From assembly GCA_028275165.1 (NCBI GenBank), contig JAQCNF010000087.1, positions 1 to 64,000 on the forward strand: DNA of 64,000 nucleotides, given 5' to 3'. Positions 1,782-9,819 of this stretch are shown one piece after another. The stretch comes from Haloquadratum sp. (GTDB lineage Archaea > Halobacteriota > Halobacteria > Halobacteriales > Haloferacaceae). The notes beneath the pieces were generated by a model. It saw nothing but the letters and a program-made list of their open reading frames with translations. It searched no databases and was not told the origin of the DNA. Position 1 is the stretch's first letter, and every line of letters begins with the position of its first letter. The position numbers were made by a program, and so were the translations under genes.

Positions 1782-2522
1782 ATGGATACACCAAATCGTG
1801 ATCATGCCATTGAGGCGCTCGCATCACGAGACTATCTTGAGGCAGGGAATTACTACATGCGGTCTGCGTATGCTCGACTATCAGGAGAATCCGAGCGCGG
1901 GCGGGATCTGTTCACATCTGAGGGTGGCAATTGGAGCGGGTATGCACTTGAGTCAGTGTTACTCGCAACGGTGTGTTCTCAGATTACTGGAAATGAATCG
2001 CGAGCACGTGGACGTGCTGGGCAAGGGATTCTCATTGCGAGTGACCTTCGAGATAGTGTTCTTTCGCAATTAGGGCTGCAAGCAGGCTGCGAGGAATGGG
2101 TCGGTCTATTCCGCGCGGTGACCCAGAAATCAGAACGGGCGAGTGCTGCGTTCGAGCGCGCCGAGACGCGGTATGGGTCGGTTGAGTCATCTGAAAAGGT
2201 TGAGTTAACTACAGAACCACTTCTACAGGCGAGCGAGCGGGCGCTTCGACAAATCTCTCGGCCGGATGATTTCCAATGGGATGATATGCACGGTTCAGCA
2301 CCATCCAATGCCCTGTCAAGACGCATCCAGTTTATTCGCTCGCGCGTCCCGGCGTTTATGAAATCTCGTCTCAATGCTGGTCATCTGCACGCACCGCGAG
2401 GGTCGACCGAGTACGGTAATGAAAAGTTCAGGTGTCCTGATTGTGGCTCGCACGATATCAATTACGTGGCTGATACAGTTCTGTGTCTCCGATGCGATAC
2501 CCCGACCAACCGTATCGATTGA
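1782..2522 (+). CDS. Conserved haloarchaeal protein with C-terminal zinc ribbon
   Basis: Function not recognised. The 246-residue protein starts with an alpha-helical, alanine-rich part (about residues 5-130) that could fold as TPR-like helical hairpins (HAIEALASRDYLEAGNYY, repeated small/large patterns). It ends in a four-cysteine zinc ribbon: CPDC near residue 218 and CLRC near 236. A helical scaffold plus zinc ribbon suggests a protein- or nucleic-acid-binding role; that is inference. The ATG at 1782 follows an AT-rich stretch (GATAAAAT) and is the first good start in frame. It stands alone between the IS remnant on its left and the convergent DisA_N genes on its right. Confidence 0.75.
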   Translation: MDTPNRDHAIEALASRDYLEAGNYYMRSAYARLSGESERGRDLFTSEGGNWSGYALESVLLATVCSQITGNESRARGRAGQGILIASDLRDSVLSQLGLQAGCEEWVGLFRAVTQKSERASAAFERAETRYGSVESSEKVELTTEPLLQASERALRQISRPDDFQWDDMHGSAPSNALSRRIQFIRSRVPAFMKSRLNAGHLHAPRGSTEYGNEKFRCPDCGSHDINYVADTVLCLRCDTPTNRID

Positions 2523-2746: not shown

Positions 2747-3301
2747 TCAGGCCGGTCGCCACGGGGCACCGATTTCATCGCGCTTGTAATCCTCAAAACT
2801 ACCGTTAGTAAAGACACTCACACGGCCTGTTTCTTCGCTTACTGTCACAGCGAAGAGCACTTCTGGTCGTGTCGAGACTTCAACTGCGCTCAGATGCTTG
2901 GTGCCCATCCAGTCAGCGTAAGCAATCTCATCGCGACGTTCTACCTCAGCTGCACTCGGTGAGCGAATTCGGACCATCTGCTCTTGAATTGTTCCGTCGG
3001 CAGTGACAACGATCGCACCATCTCGTTCAAACGCCACTTGTCTGGCAGCTGCGACGAAGTCCTCGCTCGAGTCTGAGACTACTCGACAGATGTCGACTGG
3101 CCAGACGTTTGCCCCGAGTGGGTCAGCGTATTCGGCGTAATTGACATCTGCGATGACGATGAAATAGAGGCTTGGACCGCTCACATACTGCTCTTCCCAA
3201 CGATCAAACTCTAAGCTTAGGCTTTCTGCGACATCGACAATCCGGTGTAGTAATGCTTCAACGGTCGCGTGCTCAGCGCGGAGTGTCCTACTTTCGACCA
3301 T
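2747..3301 (-). CDS. Compact DisA_N-domain protein, diadenylate cyclase-like (copy 1)
   Basis: Probable nucleotide-binding or cyclising protein of the DisA_N (diadenylate cyclase) fold, which in active members makes cyclic di-AMP from two ATP. The family DGA motif is at residues 94-96 (ERDGAIVV), the RHR-type motif appears as GTKHLSA at 133-139, and the following SEETGRVSVF matches the SES/SEE-containing segment. The protein has 184 residues, well short of the roughly 270 of the characterised haloarchaeal DacZ, and its N-terminal half (SGPSLYFIVI, YADPLG) differs from DacZ. The usual Arg before His is Lys. It is a tandem paralogue of the gene at 3386-3922, with about half the residues identical by eye. 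Cyclase activity is inference; a sensor or regulatory role is possible. Confidence 0.72.
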   Translation of the reverse strand: MVESRTLRAEHATVEALLHRIVDVAESLSLEFDRWEEQYVSGPSLYFIVIADVNYAEYADPLGANVWPVDICRVVSDSSEDFVAAARQVAFERDGAIVVTADGTIQEQMVRIRSPSAAEVERRDEIAYADWMGTKHLSAVEVSTRPEVLFAVTVSEETGRVSVFTNGSFEDYKRDEIGAPWRPA

Positions 3302-3385
3302 AGATAGGCGAATTATCAGTCATCAACTGGTGTGTGTCGCGCCTGCATAAAATAGACGCGTTATAGACGCTCTTAGGACGGGTCA

Positions 3386-3922
3386 TCATTCGATACGCCA
3401 TCGACCACCCAACTCTGAGCGCTCATAGTCATCGAATGTTCCATCTTCGAAAACGGTAACACGGCCATTTTCTTCACTCAGCGTAACTGCCGCAATCACT
3501 TCATCATTTGCAGACACTTCAAGTGCACTCAGATGTTTTGCGCTCATCCAGTCTGGATACTCCAGAGCGCGAATATCGACACCGTCAGAGGGACGAATAC
3601 GGACCATCCGTCTCTGTAGCGTGCCGTCTGCAGTCACCATTACGGCGCCATCAGCATCGAACGCGATGTCCTCGGCTGCGGCAATCACAGGCGAAAGGTC
3701 ACGGGTGATGACCTCTGCGATATCTGTCGGCCACTGATTATCGCCCAGCGGGTCAGCGTATGCACCAAACTGGACACCACCGGTGAGGACGAAATATAAG
3801 CTCGGACCTCTCACGTACTGGTTTTCCCACTTATCGAATCGAAGGCTGATATCTTCAAGGATAAATCTTAGTAGGTCAATTAATTCGTCCGTGGTGGCGA
3901 ATGACGCTTGCATCGCACTCAC
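3386..3922 (-). CDS. Compact DisA_N-domain protein, diadenylate cyclase-like (copy 2)
   Basis: Second of two tandem DisA_N-type genes. Residues 91-93 are the DGA motif (DADGAVMV) and 127-133 read SAKHLSA at the RHR-type position. SLSEENGRVTVF-like sequence follows (here TLSEENGRVTVF), matching the end of the catalytic domain. The QYVRGPSLYFVL and YADPLGDNQWP segments are shared with copy 1, so the N-terminal region is a conserved part of this small family. The frame opens with GTG at 3922; an ATG at 3913 is an equally good start. The gene is divergent from the histidine kinase at 4090, so the two share a 167-base promoter region. The spacing to copy 1 (84 bases) allows cotranscription. Whether it makes cyclic di-AMP cannot be decided from sequence. 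Confidence 0.72.
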   Translation of the reverse strand: MSAMQASFATTDELIDLLRFILEDISLRFDKWENQYVRGPSLYFVLTGGVQFGAYADPLGDNQWPTDIAEVITRDLSPVIAAAEDIAFDADGAVMVTADGTLQRRMVRIRPSDGVDIRALEYPDWMSAKHLSALEVSANDEVIAAVTLSEENGRVTVFEDGTFDDYERSELGGRWRIE

Positions 3923-4089: not shown

Positions 4090-6378
4090 ATGACCCCCAT
4101 ACAGTCCCAGATACGAGTGCTCTACGTCGATGATGACACCGAATTTGCGAATGTAGCTGCTACTTTTCTTGACCGGAAGGACAATCAGATGACTATCGAA
4201 ACGTTGTGCAACCCACAAGATGTTCTTGCAAGTATCACACACGAACCACCAGATTGCATCGTGTCCGATTATGAAATGCCACAGGTAGATGGGCTGAGTC
4301 TACTTGAGTCCGTCCGTCAAGAGTATCCAAATCTCCCATTTATTCTATTCACCTCCAGAGGAACAGAGGCAGTTGCCAGTGAGGCTATCTCTCTTGATGT
4401 GACGGATTATGTGCAGAAAGACATGAAAGAGGGGACGTATGACCTGCTCGCTAATCGGATCAAGAATGCAGTCGAAAGTTACCGACAGAGACAACATGCA
4501 ATCCAACTTCGGCACCGGTTTGAGGTTGTGTTAGACACGATTGAAGCAGCGGTCTTTCTTAAGGAGCCGGATGGAGAGTATTTGCTTATGAACGAGGCGT
4601 ATAAGCAGCGAGTGCGTATCGACGCCAGTACAGAACTGCACGAATTGGATTATAATGATCTCTTCTCATCTGATGTAGCTGCCCGGTATCGAAGCGATGA
4701 TCAACGAGTTGTCGAAACGCAAGATACGATTGAGATTGAAGAATCAGATCCTGACGCCGAGCAAGTGTGGCTCACGCGGAAATCACCAGTCTTCGATGAT
4801 GCAGACAATGTCATAGCTATCTGCGGTGTCTCGACCGATATCACGGCACAAAAGCGTCGTCAGCGAGCGTTAGAGCAATATGAGGAGTACCTTTCGCACT
4901 CGCCAGAGATAATGGCAATCTTGGATCAGACTGGTGAGGTGGTGTATCAAAGCCCGATGAAACAGGATCTGTATAGTTTCGATCTCCCACGAGTTAGTGG
5001 TGAAAATGTAGTCAACTACGTTCACCCGGACGATAAAGATCGCTTTCTTCAGGATTTCAATCGAGTTTTGTCGAATCCAGAGAAATTAGTCACGACAGAG
5101 TATCGGACGGCGACAACTGATGGCAATTGGGTGTGGCTAGAAAACCACGCTTTCAATTATCTTGATCAAGACCCAATCAACGGTATACTGATTTCGGCGC
5201 GTGAGATTAACGATAGAAAGGATCAGGAGCAATCTCTTGAGCAGTATAATGAGACACTGGAACAGTTGCATGAGACGACACCAGCACTCTTGGAGGCGAC
5301 AGACATGGAGACCGCCGCAACCCGTGTCATCGAACGTTTCGAAACGATCTTTGAGTATGATATCGCGGGGGTCTGGGTGAGCACAGAAGATCAACAGGCA
5401 CTTGAGCCGATTGCACTCTCTGATCGGGGAGAAGAACTAATTTCGGAACCACCCACGTATACAGCAGACGTGCAGTCAATATCATGGGAGGCATATGAAA
5501 GCCAGCAATTACGATATATTCGCGATGTATCTACGCATCAACAGCGAGCGAATCCAGACACGCCTATTCGCTCTGAGGTGATTGTTCCATTGGGAAAGCA
5601 TGGGCTGTTAAACATTGGCTCAGTTGAGAGAGACGCGTATGCAGAGTATGAAATAGACCTGATCGAGTTATGGGCCAAGACGCTGACTGTGATATTCGCC
5701 AGGATAACGCAAATACAGATACTGCGCGACAGAGAAGAGGAATTAACACGTGAGCGTGACAGATTGAATGAGTTTACACGAGCTGTCACACATGATTTGC
5801 AAAATCCATTAAACGTGGCCAGCGGATATACCGAACTCGCAGCACAAGAATGCGATAGCACACACCTGACAAAGATATCTCAGGCATTATCACGGATGGA
5901 GGAATTGATCGAGGATATATCGGTGCTTGCTCAGCAAGGTCAAGTCGTTGGTGAAACGAACCCAGTTGATATTGATGCTGTCGTCTCTCAGTGCTGGGAG
6001 AGGGTTGAGACGGCCGACGCGACGCTCACAATCGAAAGCACAGCAACAATACAGGCTGATGAGAGCAGACTCGCGGAAGTTCTCGAAAACCTGCTCTTGA
6101 ATGCTATCGAGCACTGTGATGAGCCGGTTGAAATTTACGTTGGCATTGCTGAAGAAGAGAATGGATTTTATATCGCTGATAATGGCGAAGGAATTGCAGA
6201 CGAATACCTGCCTCATGTATTCGAGAGCGGGTACACGACCGTCCAGAATAACACGGGCTTTGGACTGTCAATTGCCAGACGAATTTGTGAAGCACATGGC
6301 TGGGAATTAACAGTCACCGAGAGCGCTCATGGCGGTGCTCGGTTCGATATTACCGGAGTTGAGATGAGTGAGTGTTGA
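4090..6378 (+). CDS. Receiver-PAS-PAS-GAF sensor histidine kinase
   Basis: Cytosolic two-component kinase of 762 residues; no membrane segment is seen. Order of domains: receiver (about 8-125, acidic pocket DDD at 14-16, phospho-acceptor Asp60 in SDYEMP, Lys in QKDM); PAS (about 145-255, ends with DITAQKRR); second PAS (about 270-380, ends with INDRKDQ); GAF (about 400-545); HisKA with phospho-His568 in THDLQNP; HATPase with N box ENLLLNAIEH, G1 box DNGEGI and G2 box GFGLSIA. All catalytic residues appear present. A receiver at the N-terminus of a kinase is common in haloarchaea and suggests input from another phosphorelay. The start is ATG at 4090, divergent from the DisA_N gene. The output partner is not in the window. 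Confidence 0.92.
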   Translation: MTPIQSQIRVLYVDDDTEFANVAATFLDRKDNQMTIETLCNPQDVLASITHEPPDCIVSDYEMPQVDGLSLLESVRQEYPNLPFILFTSRGTEAVASEAISLDVTDYVQKDMKEGTYDLLANRIKNAVESYRQRQHAIQLRHRFEVVLDTIEAAVFLKEPDGEYLLMNEAYKQRVRIDASTELHELDYNDLFSSDVAARYRSDDQRVVETQDTIEIEESDPDAEQVWLTRKSPVFDDADNVIAICGVSTDITAQKRRQRALEQYEEYLSHSPEIMAILDQTGEVVYQSPMKQDLYSFDLPRVSGENVVNYVHPDDKDRFLQDFNRVLSNPEKLVTTEYRTATTDGNWVWLENHAFNYLDQDPINGILISAREINDRKDQEQSLEQYNETLEQLHETTPALLEATDMETAATRVIERFETIFEYDIAGVWVSTEDQQALEPIALSDRGEELISEPPTYTADVQSISWEAYESQQLRYIRDVSTHQQRANPDTPIRSEVIVPLGKHGLLNIGSVERDAYAEYEIDLIELWAKTLTVIFARITQIQILRDREEELTRERDRLNEFTRAVTHDLQNPLNVASGYTELAAQECDSTHLTKISQALSRMEELIEDISVLAQQGQVVGETNPVDIDAVVSQCWERVETADATLTIESTATIQADESRLAEVLENLLLNAIEHCDEPVEIYVGIAEEENGFYIADNGEGIADEYLPHVFESGYTTVQNNTGFGLSIARRICEAHGWELTVTESAHGGARFDITGVEMSEC

Positions 6379-6408
6379 ACTCGTTCTCGTATGGTCGATA
6401 TTCTCTCT

Positions 6409-6429
6409 TGACTGGGACAAACCCAGTCA
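6409..6429 (+). terminator. Hairpin downstream of histidine kinase
   Basis: Perfect 8-bp inverted repeat TGACTGGG / CCCAGTCA around a 5-base loop, 31 bases after the kinase stop. No U-run follows directly, so it may be a transcript-end structure rather than a classical terminator. Confidence 0.4.
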
Positions 6430-6730
6430 GGGAAGCAGTGAATCGTGATATCCGAGTGCGACCATTCCCGCAATTGTGCTCTCTCGGTATTTTTGAATCA
6501 AAAGGAGGTTTAAAATCGAAGACATGACACGAAATGTCTGAAGATATCTGAACAGCCTTACCTGACTGCTCTGGTTTCACGCTATTGTTACGACAACAGC
6601 ATCGTTGCTGGTTTTATTCAGATGGGGGATGCTTTTCGAGAGGTGACACACCTGAGGAAATTCGACACTGTGAGCTTTGATTTACTCGTCAACACGACAA
6701 TCTGAAGCCGATCTCTAAGGAACACATCAT
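6430..6730. other. Intergenic, no gene seen
   Basis: About 300 bases between the kinase and the next small gene. Short open frames on both strands lack recognisable features. Probably holds the promoter of the gene at 6731. Confidence 0.5.
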
Positions 6731-7057
6731 ATGGGACAAGAAACTCTCGACGGAAATGATATTTCGACACTCCGTGAAAGGTATGTCAAGAAAGTAGACC
6801 AGGAGCTGCCAAACAAGGCACAAAGTAGCGATGGGTGGCCTATCCACCTTAATCACTGCTTTGGACGTGTTATCCTCGATAATATATTCCAAGACGAGTG
6901 GTACGACCATGTTGATGGACGGCCTGCGTATGAAAATCTCTCAGAACAAGAGCTACGTGAAGCGATTCACATTGCAGACAGGATGCTTGATAAAGGCAAG
7001 CCCATCGTTGAAGAGCTCAATGAAAACTCCCTCCAATGGCGCGGCGAATTAGATTAG
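6731..7057 (+). CDS. Small conserved haloarchaeal protein
   Basis: Function not recognised with certainty. A 108-residue acidic, mostly helical protein with no membrane segment or signal. The segment WPIHLNHCFGRVILDN followed by WYDHVDGRPAYENL is rich in aromatic and histidine residues and looks like a conserved core rather than random coding. I have an impression of similar haloarchaeal proteins carrying an acetyltransferase label, but no acetyl-CoA motif is visible, so I do not assign it. It starts at ATG 6731 and stands alone, convergent with vapC. Confidence 0.7.
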   Translation: MGQETLDGNDISTLRERYVKKVDQELPNKAQSSDGWPIHLNHCFGRVILDNIFQDEWYDHVDGRPAYENLSEQELREAIHIADRMLDKGKPIVEELNENSLQWRGELD

Positions 7058-7158
7058 TGCCATCCTGTCGATTTTCGAGATGTATTCTTAGAGAGAAGCG
7101 ATATTGAGAGTATCTGTACTAGCTCATCAGCACTCGCGAATCGCGGTTTATATGCGTC

Positions 7159-7551
7159 TTAGTACGTCTCAATGTCGACTCCGAGCGCTGTGAAGTCTCC
7201 GACGTTGTCGGTAAGGACAGGTTCGTCGTAGACGTCAGAAACTGCTGCGACCATCGGATCGAGTTTATCGATGCCGCTTTCAGCATCGGCTTGCTGGTCG
7301 GCCCGTGCGAGCAACTGTCCGGCGCGATGAGCTATCGTCTCGTTCTGTTCGACGACCGGATACATCCGGAGCGCGTTTCTGACGTTCCTCCGTTCGTCTT
7401 CATCGCCGAACTCGGCACCGTACGATAGCTCCATGACGACCGGTGATGGAACCCGCTGAACGGTCTTCGTCTCCGTGAGTTCGATGCCTTTCTCGAACGC
7501 CCCCTCGCGACCGTCGAAGAGATCGATCAGGAACGGCGTATCAAGGATCAC
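7159..7551 (-). CDS. vapC: VapC-type PIN-domain toxin ribonuclease
   Basis: PIN-domain RNase, the toxin of a type II toxin-antitoxin pair; family members cleave tRNA or rRNA. The 130-residue length is typical. Acidic metal ligands are in place: Asp4 (MILDTP), Glu41 (VVMELSYG), Asp98 (DKLDPMVAA) and Asp115/Asp119 (LTDNVGDF). Its start overlaps the stop of the antitoxin gene by 4 bases, so the two are translationally coupled in one operon with the antitoxin first. GC content is higher than in neighbouring core genes (about 55% in a 60-base sample), in keeping with transfer. The RNA target cannot be predicted. Confidence 0.92.
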   Translation of the reverse strand: MILDTPFLIDLFDGREGAFEKGIELTETKTVQRVPSPVVMELSYGAEFGDEDERRNVRNALRMYPVVEQNETIAHRAGQLLARADQQADAESGIDKLDPMVAAVSDVYDEPVLTDNVGDFTALGVDIETY

Positions 7552-8131: not shown

Positions 8132-8740
8132 TCAGACGAGTCGCGCGAATGCAAGCGTGCCGCTAGTACGCTCAATAAGTGCCTGGACGGTTTCGCCTTC
8201 TTGAGCGCCGGACACAAAGATAGTATAATTCCCTCTCTCAGCAACCCCATCACCCTTCCGACCGGTACCAGTGATCTCAACTTCGTATGTTTTGCCTTCT
8301 TCAACTGTTTCTTGGGTGTGGTGTTGGGTTGTGTTTGGACTCTTCTCGACCGGTCGAAATGCACCGCAGGCTTCACACCGAAGCATGTCAACTCCATCTT
8401 CAGTGACTAAACGCGTATCTGGAAGGCCACATTCACTGCAGGTCACATACTCGGCAACATATTCATCGATTGCTGACTCGAAATCTGCGACAGTAAATGA
8501 CCCATTATATCGCCCACGAGATTCTGTAAGCTGGCCATTCGTTCCTAACGTCCCCTGGATCGTTCGATGAATATCCTCTACGTCCCGGTCAAGTGTGTCT
8601 GCAATATCACTAAGATTTGTCAGACGGGTAAATGCACCGTCAGTCTCGCCATCGGGAGTGGGGATAGATAGTCGTGATTCCTCGCCTCCTCGCTCAGGCA
8701 GCGCCTCAAGTGCGCGGTCTAACGACGCGGTATACTCCAT
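8132..8740 (-). CDS. eif2b: Translation initiation factor aIF2-beta with C-terminal TRAM domain
   Basis: Beta subunit of the archaeal initiation factor 2 trimer that brings initiator tRNA to the small ribosomal subunit. From the ATG at 8740 it has 202 residues: N-terminal helix (MEYTASLDRALEALPE), the central alpha-beta domain with LGTNGQL and NGSFT, and a four-cysteine zinc ribbon (CSEC ... CEAC). A TRAM domain follows over about residues 140-202 (GRKGDGVAERGNYTIFVSGA), an RNA-binding add-on seen in haloarchaeal versions. A GTG at 8791 would add 17 residues and overlap the upstream stop; I prefer 8740 because it matches the family N-terminus. It is last in the run nif3 - dhs - eif2b. Confidence 0.93.
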   Translation of the reverse strand: MEYTASLDRALEALPERGGEESRLSIPTPDGETDGAFTRLTNLSDIADTLDRDVEDIHRTIQGTLGTNGQLTESRGRYNGSFTVADFESAIDEYVAEYVTCSECGLPDTRLVTEDGVDMLRCEACGAFRPVEKSPNTTQHHTQETVEEGKTYEVEITGTGRKGDGVAERGNYTIFVSGAQEGETVQALIERTSGTLAFARLV

Positions 8741-8787
8741 ATAAAAATTGAGGCGAAGGAATGGTATATCCGTTCCGAGGTAATTAT

Positions 8788-9819
8788 TCACTCACCGAGA
8801 CGATCACGAGTTGCTGCGACAAGCAGCGGAAGTGTAATCGAAGCATCACCGAGCACACTCACGTTTTGCGCACCCGGCTCAAGTTTGCCCCAAGACCTGG
8901 CTTCATTGAGCGTAGCACCAGAGAGGCCGCCTGTTGCATCCGGATCCATCGTTAACTGGACAGCATAATCGTAAGCTCCAGGAATCGTTAGCATCGTTTG
9001 CAGTGTGTAATTCTTCGGAACGCCACCTCCGACCACAAGAGCACCTGCTTTCTCGGCCTCAAAGGCAATATCCGAGAGATGAGTCATATCGCCGAGCGCA
9101 TCTAGACCAAATTCGGATGTCTGACTGTACATCCATGCTTGGATACCAAGGACCGAGTCCTGTATCGCCGGACAATAGATTGGAACGTCGTGCTCTGCGG
9201 CCGCAGCTGAAATGCCAGCACCTTCGTGTATGTCTCTTGCATCATTAACTGCAGCGTTTGCTACGCCAAGTTGCTCGGTGAGATCCTGAATCGTAACCTG
9301 CGAATCAAACACTGGAAAGACATTTTCTCGAAGATGCGTCTCAAGGAGTGTGAAATGTTCCTGCGGAAGATAGACGTTATATATGCGGTCAACACCCTCA
9401 GTTCGTAAATTTTCATCATGTTCACGTTCAGAGTCTGGCGAGGGAGCTGATTCACTAGCTGGGTGTGACGTCTTATGATCGGCTCGCCCATGGTGGTGCT
9501 TCCCTCCGATTGCCTCAATTGCATCGTGAGTTAGATTTGCACCGGTCGTCACCAACACGTCAATGTATCCATCACGAATGAGATCACTTACAACTTGGCG
9601 CATCCCTATTGGAACCATTGCGCCAGCAAGGCCAACAAACACATCAACTGCTGGGTCACGAAGCATTTCAGCATAGATATCGACCGCTTTTGAGATATCT
9701 GCAGCGCCAATCCCAGCTTTTCCGTATTCTGTGGCGAGGTCGCCGACAGTCATGCCCGCCTCAGCAGTCACATGCTCAATCGGTGCCTCACTAAATTCGG
9801 ACTGCTCCTCATTCTTCAT
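8788..9819 (-). CDS. dhs: Deoxyhypusine synthase
   Basis: Modifies the single hypusine lysine of aIF5A, using NAD and an aminobutyl donor. The 343-residue protein has VGLAGAMVPIGMR and VTTGANLTHD (NAD and substrate binding), GGHHH-like GGKHHHG, GVPKNY, and the C-terminal SWGKL with the catalytic lysine at about residue 312. The frame extends to 9915, but the extra residues would overlap the upstream nif3 gene; ATG 9819 gives the family N-terminus and a 50-base gap. The target, aIF5A, and an agmatinase-like gene lie 2-3 kb upstream on the same strand. In Haloferax the usual spermidine route is doubted and an agmatine route has been proposed. Confidence 0.95.
   Translation of the reverse strand: MKNEEQSEFSEAPIEHVTAEAGMTVGDLATEYGKAGIGAADISKAVDIYAEMLRDPAVDVFVGLAGAMVPIGMRQVVSDLIRDGYIDVLVTTGANLTHDAIEAIGGKHHHGRADHKTSHPASESAPSPDSEREHDENLRTEGVDRIYNVYLPQEHFTLLETHLRENVFPVFDSQVTIQDLTEQLGVANAAVNDARDIHEGAGISAAAAEHDVPIYCPAIQDSVLGIQAWMYSQTSEFGLDALGDMTHLSDIAFEAEKAGALVVGGGVPKNYTLQTMLTIPGAYDYAVQLTMDPDATGGLSGATLNEARSWGKLEPGAQNVSVLGDASITLPLLVAATRDRLGE

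Follow-up and report, generated by a model that had tools for sequence, protein, structure and literature searches.

The window analysed here, a 64,000-nucleotide stretch of Haloquadratum sp. DNA (contig JAQCNF010000087.1), contains two adjacent genes for compact proteins with hallmarks of the diadenylate cyclase (DAC) domain, and it raises the question of what such a pair does in a haloarchaeon whose genome (3.1 Mb in 194 contigs, 73% complete) also encodes a canonical 274-aa DacZ, on contig C152. Haloferax volcanii has been described as having a single DAC. Its DacZ (CdaZ, HVO_1660) is an active diadenylate cyclase, and c-di-AMP is essential in this species and implicated in osmoregulation (PMC6741144). 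The two genes and their motifs, located by open reading frame, coordinates or alignment, are as follows.

3386-3922, minus strand: DAC-A, the upstream copy, 178 aa, GTG start, 'SAKH' type (open reading frame)
3644-3652, minus strand: DGA motif of DAC-A, residues 91-93 (alignment columns)
3533-3541, minus strand: AKH motif of DAC-A, residues 128-130, equivalent to the [TA]RH of other DACs (alignment columns)
3470-3478, minus strand: SEE motif of DAC-A, residues 149-151 (alignment columns)
3302-3385, minus strand: 84-nt gap between DAC-A and DAC-B, which lie head to tail (coordinates)
2747-3301, minus strand: DAC-B, the downstream copy, 184 aa, 'GTKH' type (open reading frame)
3161-3178, minus strand: family-conserved GPSLYF segment of DAC-B, residues 42-47 (alignment)
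3113-3130, minus strand: YADPLG segment of DAC-B, residues 58-63, at the start of DPxGxNxWP (alignment)
3014-3022, minus strand: DGA motif of DAC-B, residues 94-96 (alignment)
2894-2902, minus strand: TKH motif of DAC-B, residues 134-136 (alignment)
2831-2839, minus strand: SEE motif of DAC-B, residues 155-157 (alignment)

The original prediction, made from the letters and open reading frames alone, described two adjacent genes of 184 and 178 residues that share a DGA motif and an RHR-like motif with Lys in place of Arg (TKHLSA, AKHLSA), and both proteins do carry these motifs, at positions that align with the catalytic motifs of DACs. The two sequences are 49% identical, and the KH motif reads GTKHLSA in DAC-B and SAKHLSA in DAC-A. 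The N-terminal segment that had been singled out as their own (GPSLYF, YADPLG) falls within a stretch conserved across the family (GP, Y and DPxGxNxWP). DAC-A and DAC-B are real genes, far beyond chance, given the 79 loci for relatives in haloarchaeal genomes with names, purifying selection and a confident model of the DAC fold. Between Haloquadratum walsbyi J07HQW2 and J07HQW1, pairwise dN and dS are 0.038 and 0.57 for the A copy and 0.012 and 1.02 for the B copy, and both genes are under purifying selection.

The Pfam DAC profile (PF02457, DisA_N) matches DAC-B at 32.2 bits and DAC-A at 22.3 bits, with a cut-off of 27, and covers only the C-terminal half, although in an AF2 model of DAC-B built on 54 relatives (pLDDT 86.3, pTM 0.84) the DAC fold spans the whole domain. 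The top rows of a Foldseek search of this model against the PDB were all known diadenylate cyclases (best E 5.8e-7), and VIA-align placed residues 7-180 on DacM/CdaA with Z 12.9 and rmsd 3.4-3.6; known DACs as a group scored Z of about 12-13, and the next unrelated fold 3.2. A family profile recovered other archaeal DACs at E 1e-4 to 4e-7 and, weakly, CdaA/CdaS/CdaM-type PDB chains (E 0.0065-0.06). Single-sequence searches of the PDB returned chance matches only, such as a dephospho-CoA kinase at E 0.009, and were set aside. CdaA/DacA, CdaM/DacM and CdaS share the fold, and their GT[RK]H..A and VSEETG.V stretches align with those of the family, but they carry RHR, have membrane or other N-termini and are only 14-21% identical in sequence.

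Both proteins have in common with DacZ their haloarchaeal origin and a DAC domain with DGA, [AT]RH-type and SE motifs. DacZ, however, has a PK_C-like N-terminal domain of about 120 residues, an ARHM motif and an mscS2 neighbour (PMC6741144), whereas DAC-A and DAC-B, as had been predicted, lack the corresponding N-terminal part of their own genome's DacZ, and instead have DPxGxNxWP and either K or R at the motif. They do not cluster with haloarchaeal DacZ: in a quick tree with SH-aLRT supports, a very long, saturated branch with support 100 separates the eight DacZ rows from every one of the 67 rows of the family. Fold, tree and missing domain together bear out the idea of compact proteins distinct from DacZ, and the assignment of DAC-A and DAC-B to a haloarchaeal subfamily of stand-alone DAC domains separate from DacZ is well supported. 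The possibility that they are ordinary annotated DacZ paralogues survives in one respect, in that the NCBI pipeline already labels many family members, including most plasmid-borne ones, 'diadenylate cyclase'; the tree argues against their being ordinary DacZ paralogues. The small haloarchaeal DACs may already appear in Galperin's 2023 review of DAC architectures, and we therefore make no claim of priority for the subfamily.

Relatives are encoded in 160 stretches of named genomes, and the 79 loci fetched from these are all haloarchaeal as far as their titles tell. Within a 295-genome sample of the phylum, strong matches were confined to the order of the window, and in its family matches occur in 114 of 170 genomes. 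PADLOC gave no defence match for DAC-A, DAC-B, the 2H protein described below, or the neighbouring 246-aa protein and kinase, and a defence role for the pair was rejected on this ground; a phage origin was likewise rejected, with no match in phages or viral contigs.

Across 54 sequences (DAC-B numbering), D94, G95, H136, S155, E156 and E157 are invariant; the A of DGA is present in all except part of the R clade. Residue 135, immediately before the His, is K or R in every clade, being Lys in a large clade that includes DAC-A and DAC-B and Arg in its sister clade and a few members. The Arg-to-Lys change, noted for the pair by the original prediction within an RHR-like motif, is real at the first Arg, but it marks a whole clade and is not special to the pair, and the comparison with RHR does not hold for the genome's own DacZ, which itself reads ARHM. 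A strict RHR is absent: DAC-A and DAC-B read KHL and the haloarchaeal DacZ sequences sampled read RHM ([AT]RHM), so that loss of the second Arg is normal for haloarchaeal DACs and the first Arg-to-Lys change is the only departure of the pair from its own DacZ at the R-H pair. In M. tuberculosis DacA, changing RHR to AAA abolishes activity, whereas a Gly-to-Ala change in DGA does not (PMC3328451). Lys at position 135 could keep the phosphate contact, and, because the family has kept its catalytic positions (DGA, [K/R]H and SEE), diadenylate cyclase activity of DAC-A and DAC-B is likely; the members of the subfamily are most likely c-di-AMP synthases.

The same residues can be read differently, with the pair as non-catalytic receptors of the DAC fold whose ligand is ATP or the c-di-AMP that DacZ makes, and which relay their state to partners as sensors. 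The replacement of Arg in the ATP-binding motif would agree with this, as would the further changes in A copies: directly before K-H, all seven in the tree carry S-A in place of the G-T of B, and one copy, in a further MAG that carries the A-B pair (L088:4558-5127), has Gln for the catalytic His (SAKQMSA). All these changes also weigh against our preferred reading. Neighbours differ between clades, as expected of adaptors, and, among 60 genomes sampled, each of the 44 above 90% completeness has a DAC match, in nearly every case to a full-length DacZ. A pure receptor, however, would not need the D of DGA, the His and the SE pair all to be (nearly) invariant, nor an R clade that keeps its Arg, and we regard the receptor reading as unlikely, though it deserves to be taken seriously.

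The pair was looked for in other Haloquadratum and related genomes, and the tandem was found in H. walsbyi J07HQW1 and J07HQW2 and in other genera. The A copies group together with support 99 and the B copies, in a clade of their own, with support 94; within both clades the three Haloquadratum sequences stand apart from those of Halorientalis LUM.68, Haloferacaceae LUM.70, ERR2683635 bin 34 and Haloglomus. The duplication is therefore older than these lineages, and the two genes have stayed together since; that A and B are two ancient clades co-inherited as adjacent genes across several genera is well supported. Spacing between the genes is 3 nt in J07HQW2 and 8 nt in J07HQW1, with a 4-nt overlap in Haloglomus, and in one MAG (L067, the same genome as G019) A and B form a single open reading frame of 394-399 aa, in which an internal GTG could also start B. 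DACs need two domains placed head to head (PMC8573169), and a fixed pair of unlike proteins, once fused, is thus best read as a heterodimer, the characterised CdaA/DacA, CdaM/DacM and CdaS being homo-oligomers. The pair in the window is probably a heterodimeric cyclase, with DAC-A as the more altered partner.

The original prediction had also joined the tandem to the divergent kinase gene in one signalling unit. The genes around the pair are listed here.

1782-2522, plus strand: 246-aa protein without a Pfam match, convergent with the pair and also a neighbour of the tandem in H. walsbyi J07HQW1 and J07HQW2 (open reading frame)
4090-6378, plus strand: receiver-PAS-PAS-GAF-HisKA histidine kinase, 762 aa, divergent from the pair (Pfam)
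7159-7551: PIN-domain gene between the DAC pair and the eIF-2beta gene

An eIF-2beta-like protein with a C-terminal TRAM domain is encoded at 8132-8791 of the window and also near the pair in J07HQW2 (L063:5112-5720). At the other end, on the minus strand, 244-1050 and 984-1540 hold an IS200-like transposase (Y1_Tnp, 115 aa, 1193-1540) followed by a TnpB-like frame that seems to be split by a frameshift into 268 aa (244-1050) and 100 aa (984-1286); no Pfam profile matches the 268-aa part, and its TnpB identity is our own reading.

The divergent arrangement of kinase and pair across 168 bp, and the presence close to four other family genes of a protein that shares the kinase's BLAST cluster, would suit a functional unit. 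In those four loci, however, the orientation varies, and in J07HQW1 and J07HQW2 the tandem occurs with no kinase beside it; in J07HQW2 an FMN-dependent dehydrogenase stands in its place upstream, while the eIF-2beta gene, further on, and the 246-aa gene still flank the pair. The kinase and PIN-domain genes (4090-7551) are likely a local insertion, so a unit of kinase and DACs is not supported and strikes us as highly improbable; the kinase, which is not conserved next to the tandem, is probably incidental to the pair. Of the suggestion of a c-di-AMP synthase or receptor pair within a signalling unit, the synthase part is the best-supported reading, and the unit with the kinase is not supported.

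In four genomes of relatives (L065, L066, L067 and L068), a gene of 218-223 aa lies 3' of the A-B pair on the same strand, overlapping B by 4 nt in Haloglomus and following it after 18 nt in L067, about 30 nt in L065 and about 500 nt in L066. Its product is a 2H phosphoesterase (PF13563, E 4.4e-22 to 2.1e-16) with two invariant HxT motifs (H73-x-T75 and H160-x-T162), and its fold resembles the P. horikoshii LigT-like protein 1vdx (Z 17.4) and the cGAMP-cleaving phage enzyme Acb1 (Z 11.2). It shares PF13563 and both HxT motifs with 2H phosphoesterases such as LigT, CPDase, AKAP18 and Acb1, but differs from them in an N-terminal H...MAS...FW.RR segment of its own, and no close characterised member was found. 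Of the 170 genomes of the family, 9 have close orthologues (E <1e-60), and each of these nine also has a K-type DAC member, against about 55 of the 170 overall as counted from the score list (hypergeometric 2e-5, ignoring shared ancestry). Five of the six tandem genomes have an orthologue (7e-7, again ignoring shared ancestry). The exception is the genome of the window itself, 73% complete, in which the gene was not found. In the three other tandem genomes of the window's genus, the 2H gene lies elsewhere on the chromosome, unlinked; this and its absence from the window's genome count against our preferred reading. A search of plasmids for the 2H gene found none.

A linked phosphoesterase fits a synthase better than a receptor. 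It also invites the idea that the heterodimer makes some other product, a mixed or differently linked cyclic dinucleotide, and for that reason has a 2H enzyme of its own: the two partners are fixed and different, the subfamily has its own DPxGxNxWP loop in the N-terminal half, and 2H enzymes include phosphodiesterases for cGAMP and for 2',5' linkages, Acb1 among them. We know of no DAC-domain enzyme that makes anything except c-di-AMP, which counts against a different product, as does the failure to detect cGAMP isomers in H. volcanii (PMC8646023), although only one DAC has been described for that species, and we consider such a product very unlikely. The c-di-AMP phosphodiesterases of H. volcanii are reported to be unknown (PMC8646023).

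Potential targets are suggested by a different branch of the subfamily. A single-copy clade (L095, L107, L115 and L116; support 98) lies in or beside potassium transport genes, and it is this clade, not the A-B tandem, that is found in K+ operons, which again counts against our preferred reading of the pair. In Halosimplex carlsbadense (L107:3783-14929) the order is K+ channel-TrkA_N, APC-Usp permease, DAC, Usp, APC-Usp permease, TrkA and TrkH, and in L095 it is APC-Usp permease, DAC and TrkA. Among the neighbours of K-type members, Usp proteins are the most frequent family, with 8 of 85 ORFs compared with about 1% of genes (binomial 4e-6, ignoring shared ancestry, with several of the eight from the single-copy K+ clade), and in Halorubrum a Usp gene lies immediately downstream of the R-clade members. 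KdpD has a Usp domain that is proven to act as a receptor for c-di-AMP (PMC8214093). At two further loci, Usp and twin-CBS proteins directly follow a family member (L112:1306-2283), and a family gene with an in-frame stop, probably a pseudogene, lies near an APC permease, a Usp and a TrkA-domain protein on a Halorientalis marina plasmid (L109:8001-8522).

Together, these results favour, with moderate confidence, a reading of DAC-A and DAC-B as DACs of this subfamily that would act as a heterodimer making c-di-AMP for osmotic and K+ systems. The two proteins would pack head-to-head, providing the two facing sites that DACs need, with B as the intact partner and A as the modified one, and would join two ATP into c-di-AMP. 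This product may act on osmotic and K+ systems through Usp, TrkA_C and APC-Usp proteins, while DacZ would make the housekeeping pool and, in relatives, the linked 2H phosphoesterase would remove the signal. On this evidence the pair is probably a dedicated c-di-AMP (salt/potassium) signalling module giving a local salt-stress signal. More tentatively, and with some doubt, we advance a narrower proposal: that the heterodimeric diadenylate cyclase is obligate and built from two genes (in one case a single chain), that one of its catalytic subunits is intact and the other modified, and that in relatives it shares an operon with a 2H-type cyclic-dinucleotide phosphodiesterase of its own.

Haloarchaea hold molar potassium, and their osmotic control is a process in which c-di-AMP is implicated. 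What is new here are the ancient A and B clades travelling together, their one fusion, the 2H gene after the pair in four genomes and the single-copy clade in K+ operons. A heterodimeric or single-chain DAC would, to our knowledge, be an architecture new to these enzymes. The targets of c-di-AMP in haloarchaea and the enzymes that degrade it are reported to be unknown (PMC6741144, PMC8646023). The presence of a second DAC subfamily in APC-Usp/TrkA/TrkH operons provides candidate c-di-AMP targets that can be tested, and the DAC-A/DAC-B/2H operon likewise provides a candidate phosphodiesterase. If the proposal is true, haloarchaea would possess a self-contained second messenger circuit, and the 2H protein would be a first candidate for their missing c-di-AMP-degrading enzyme.
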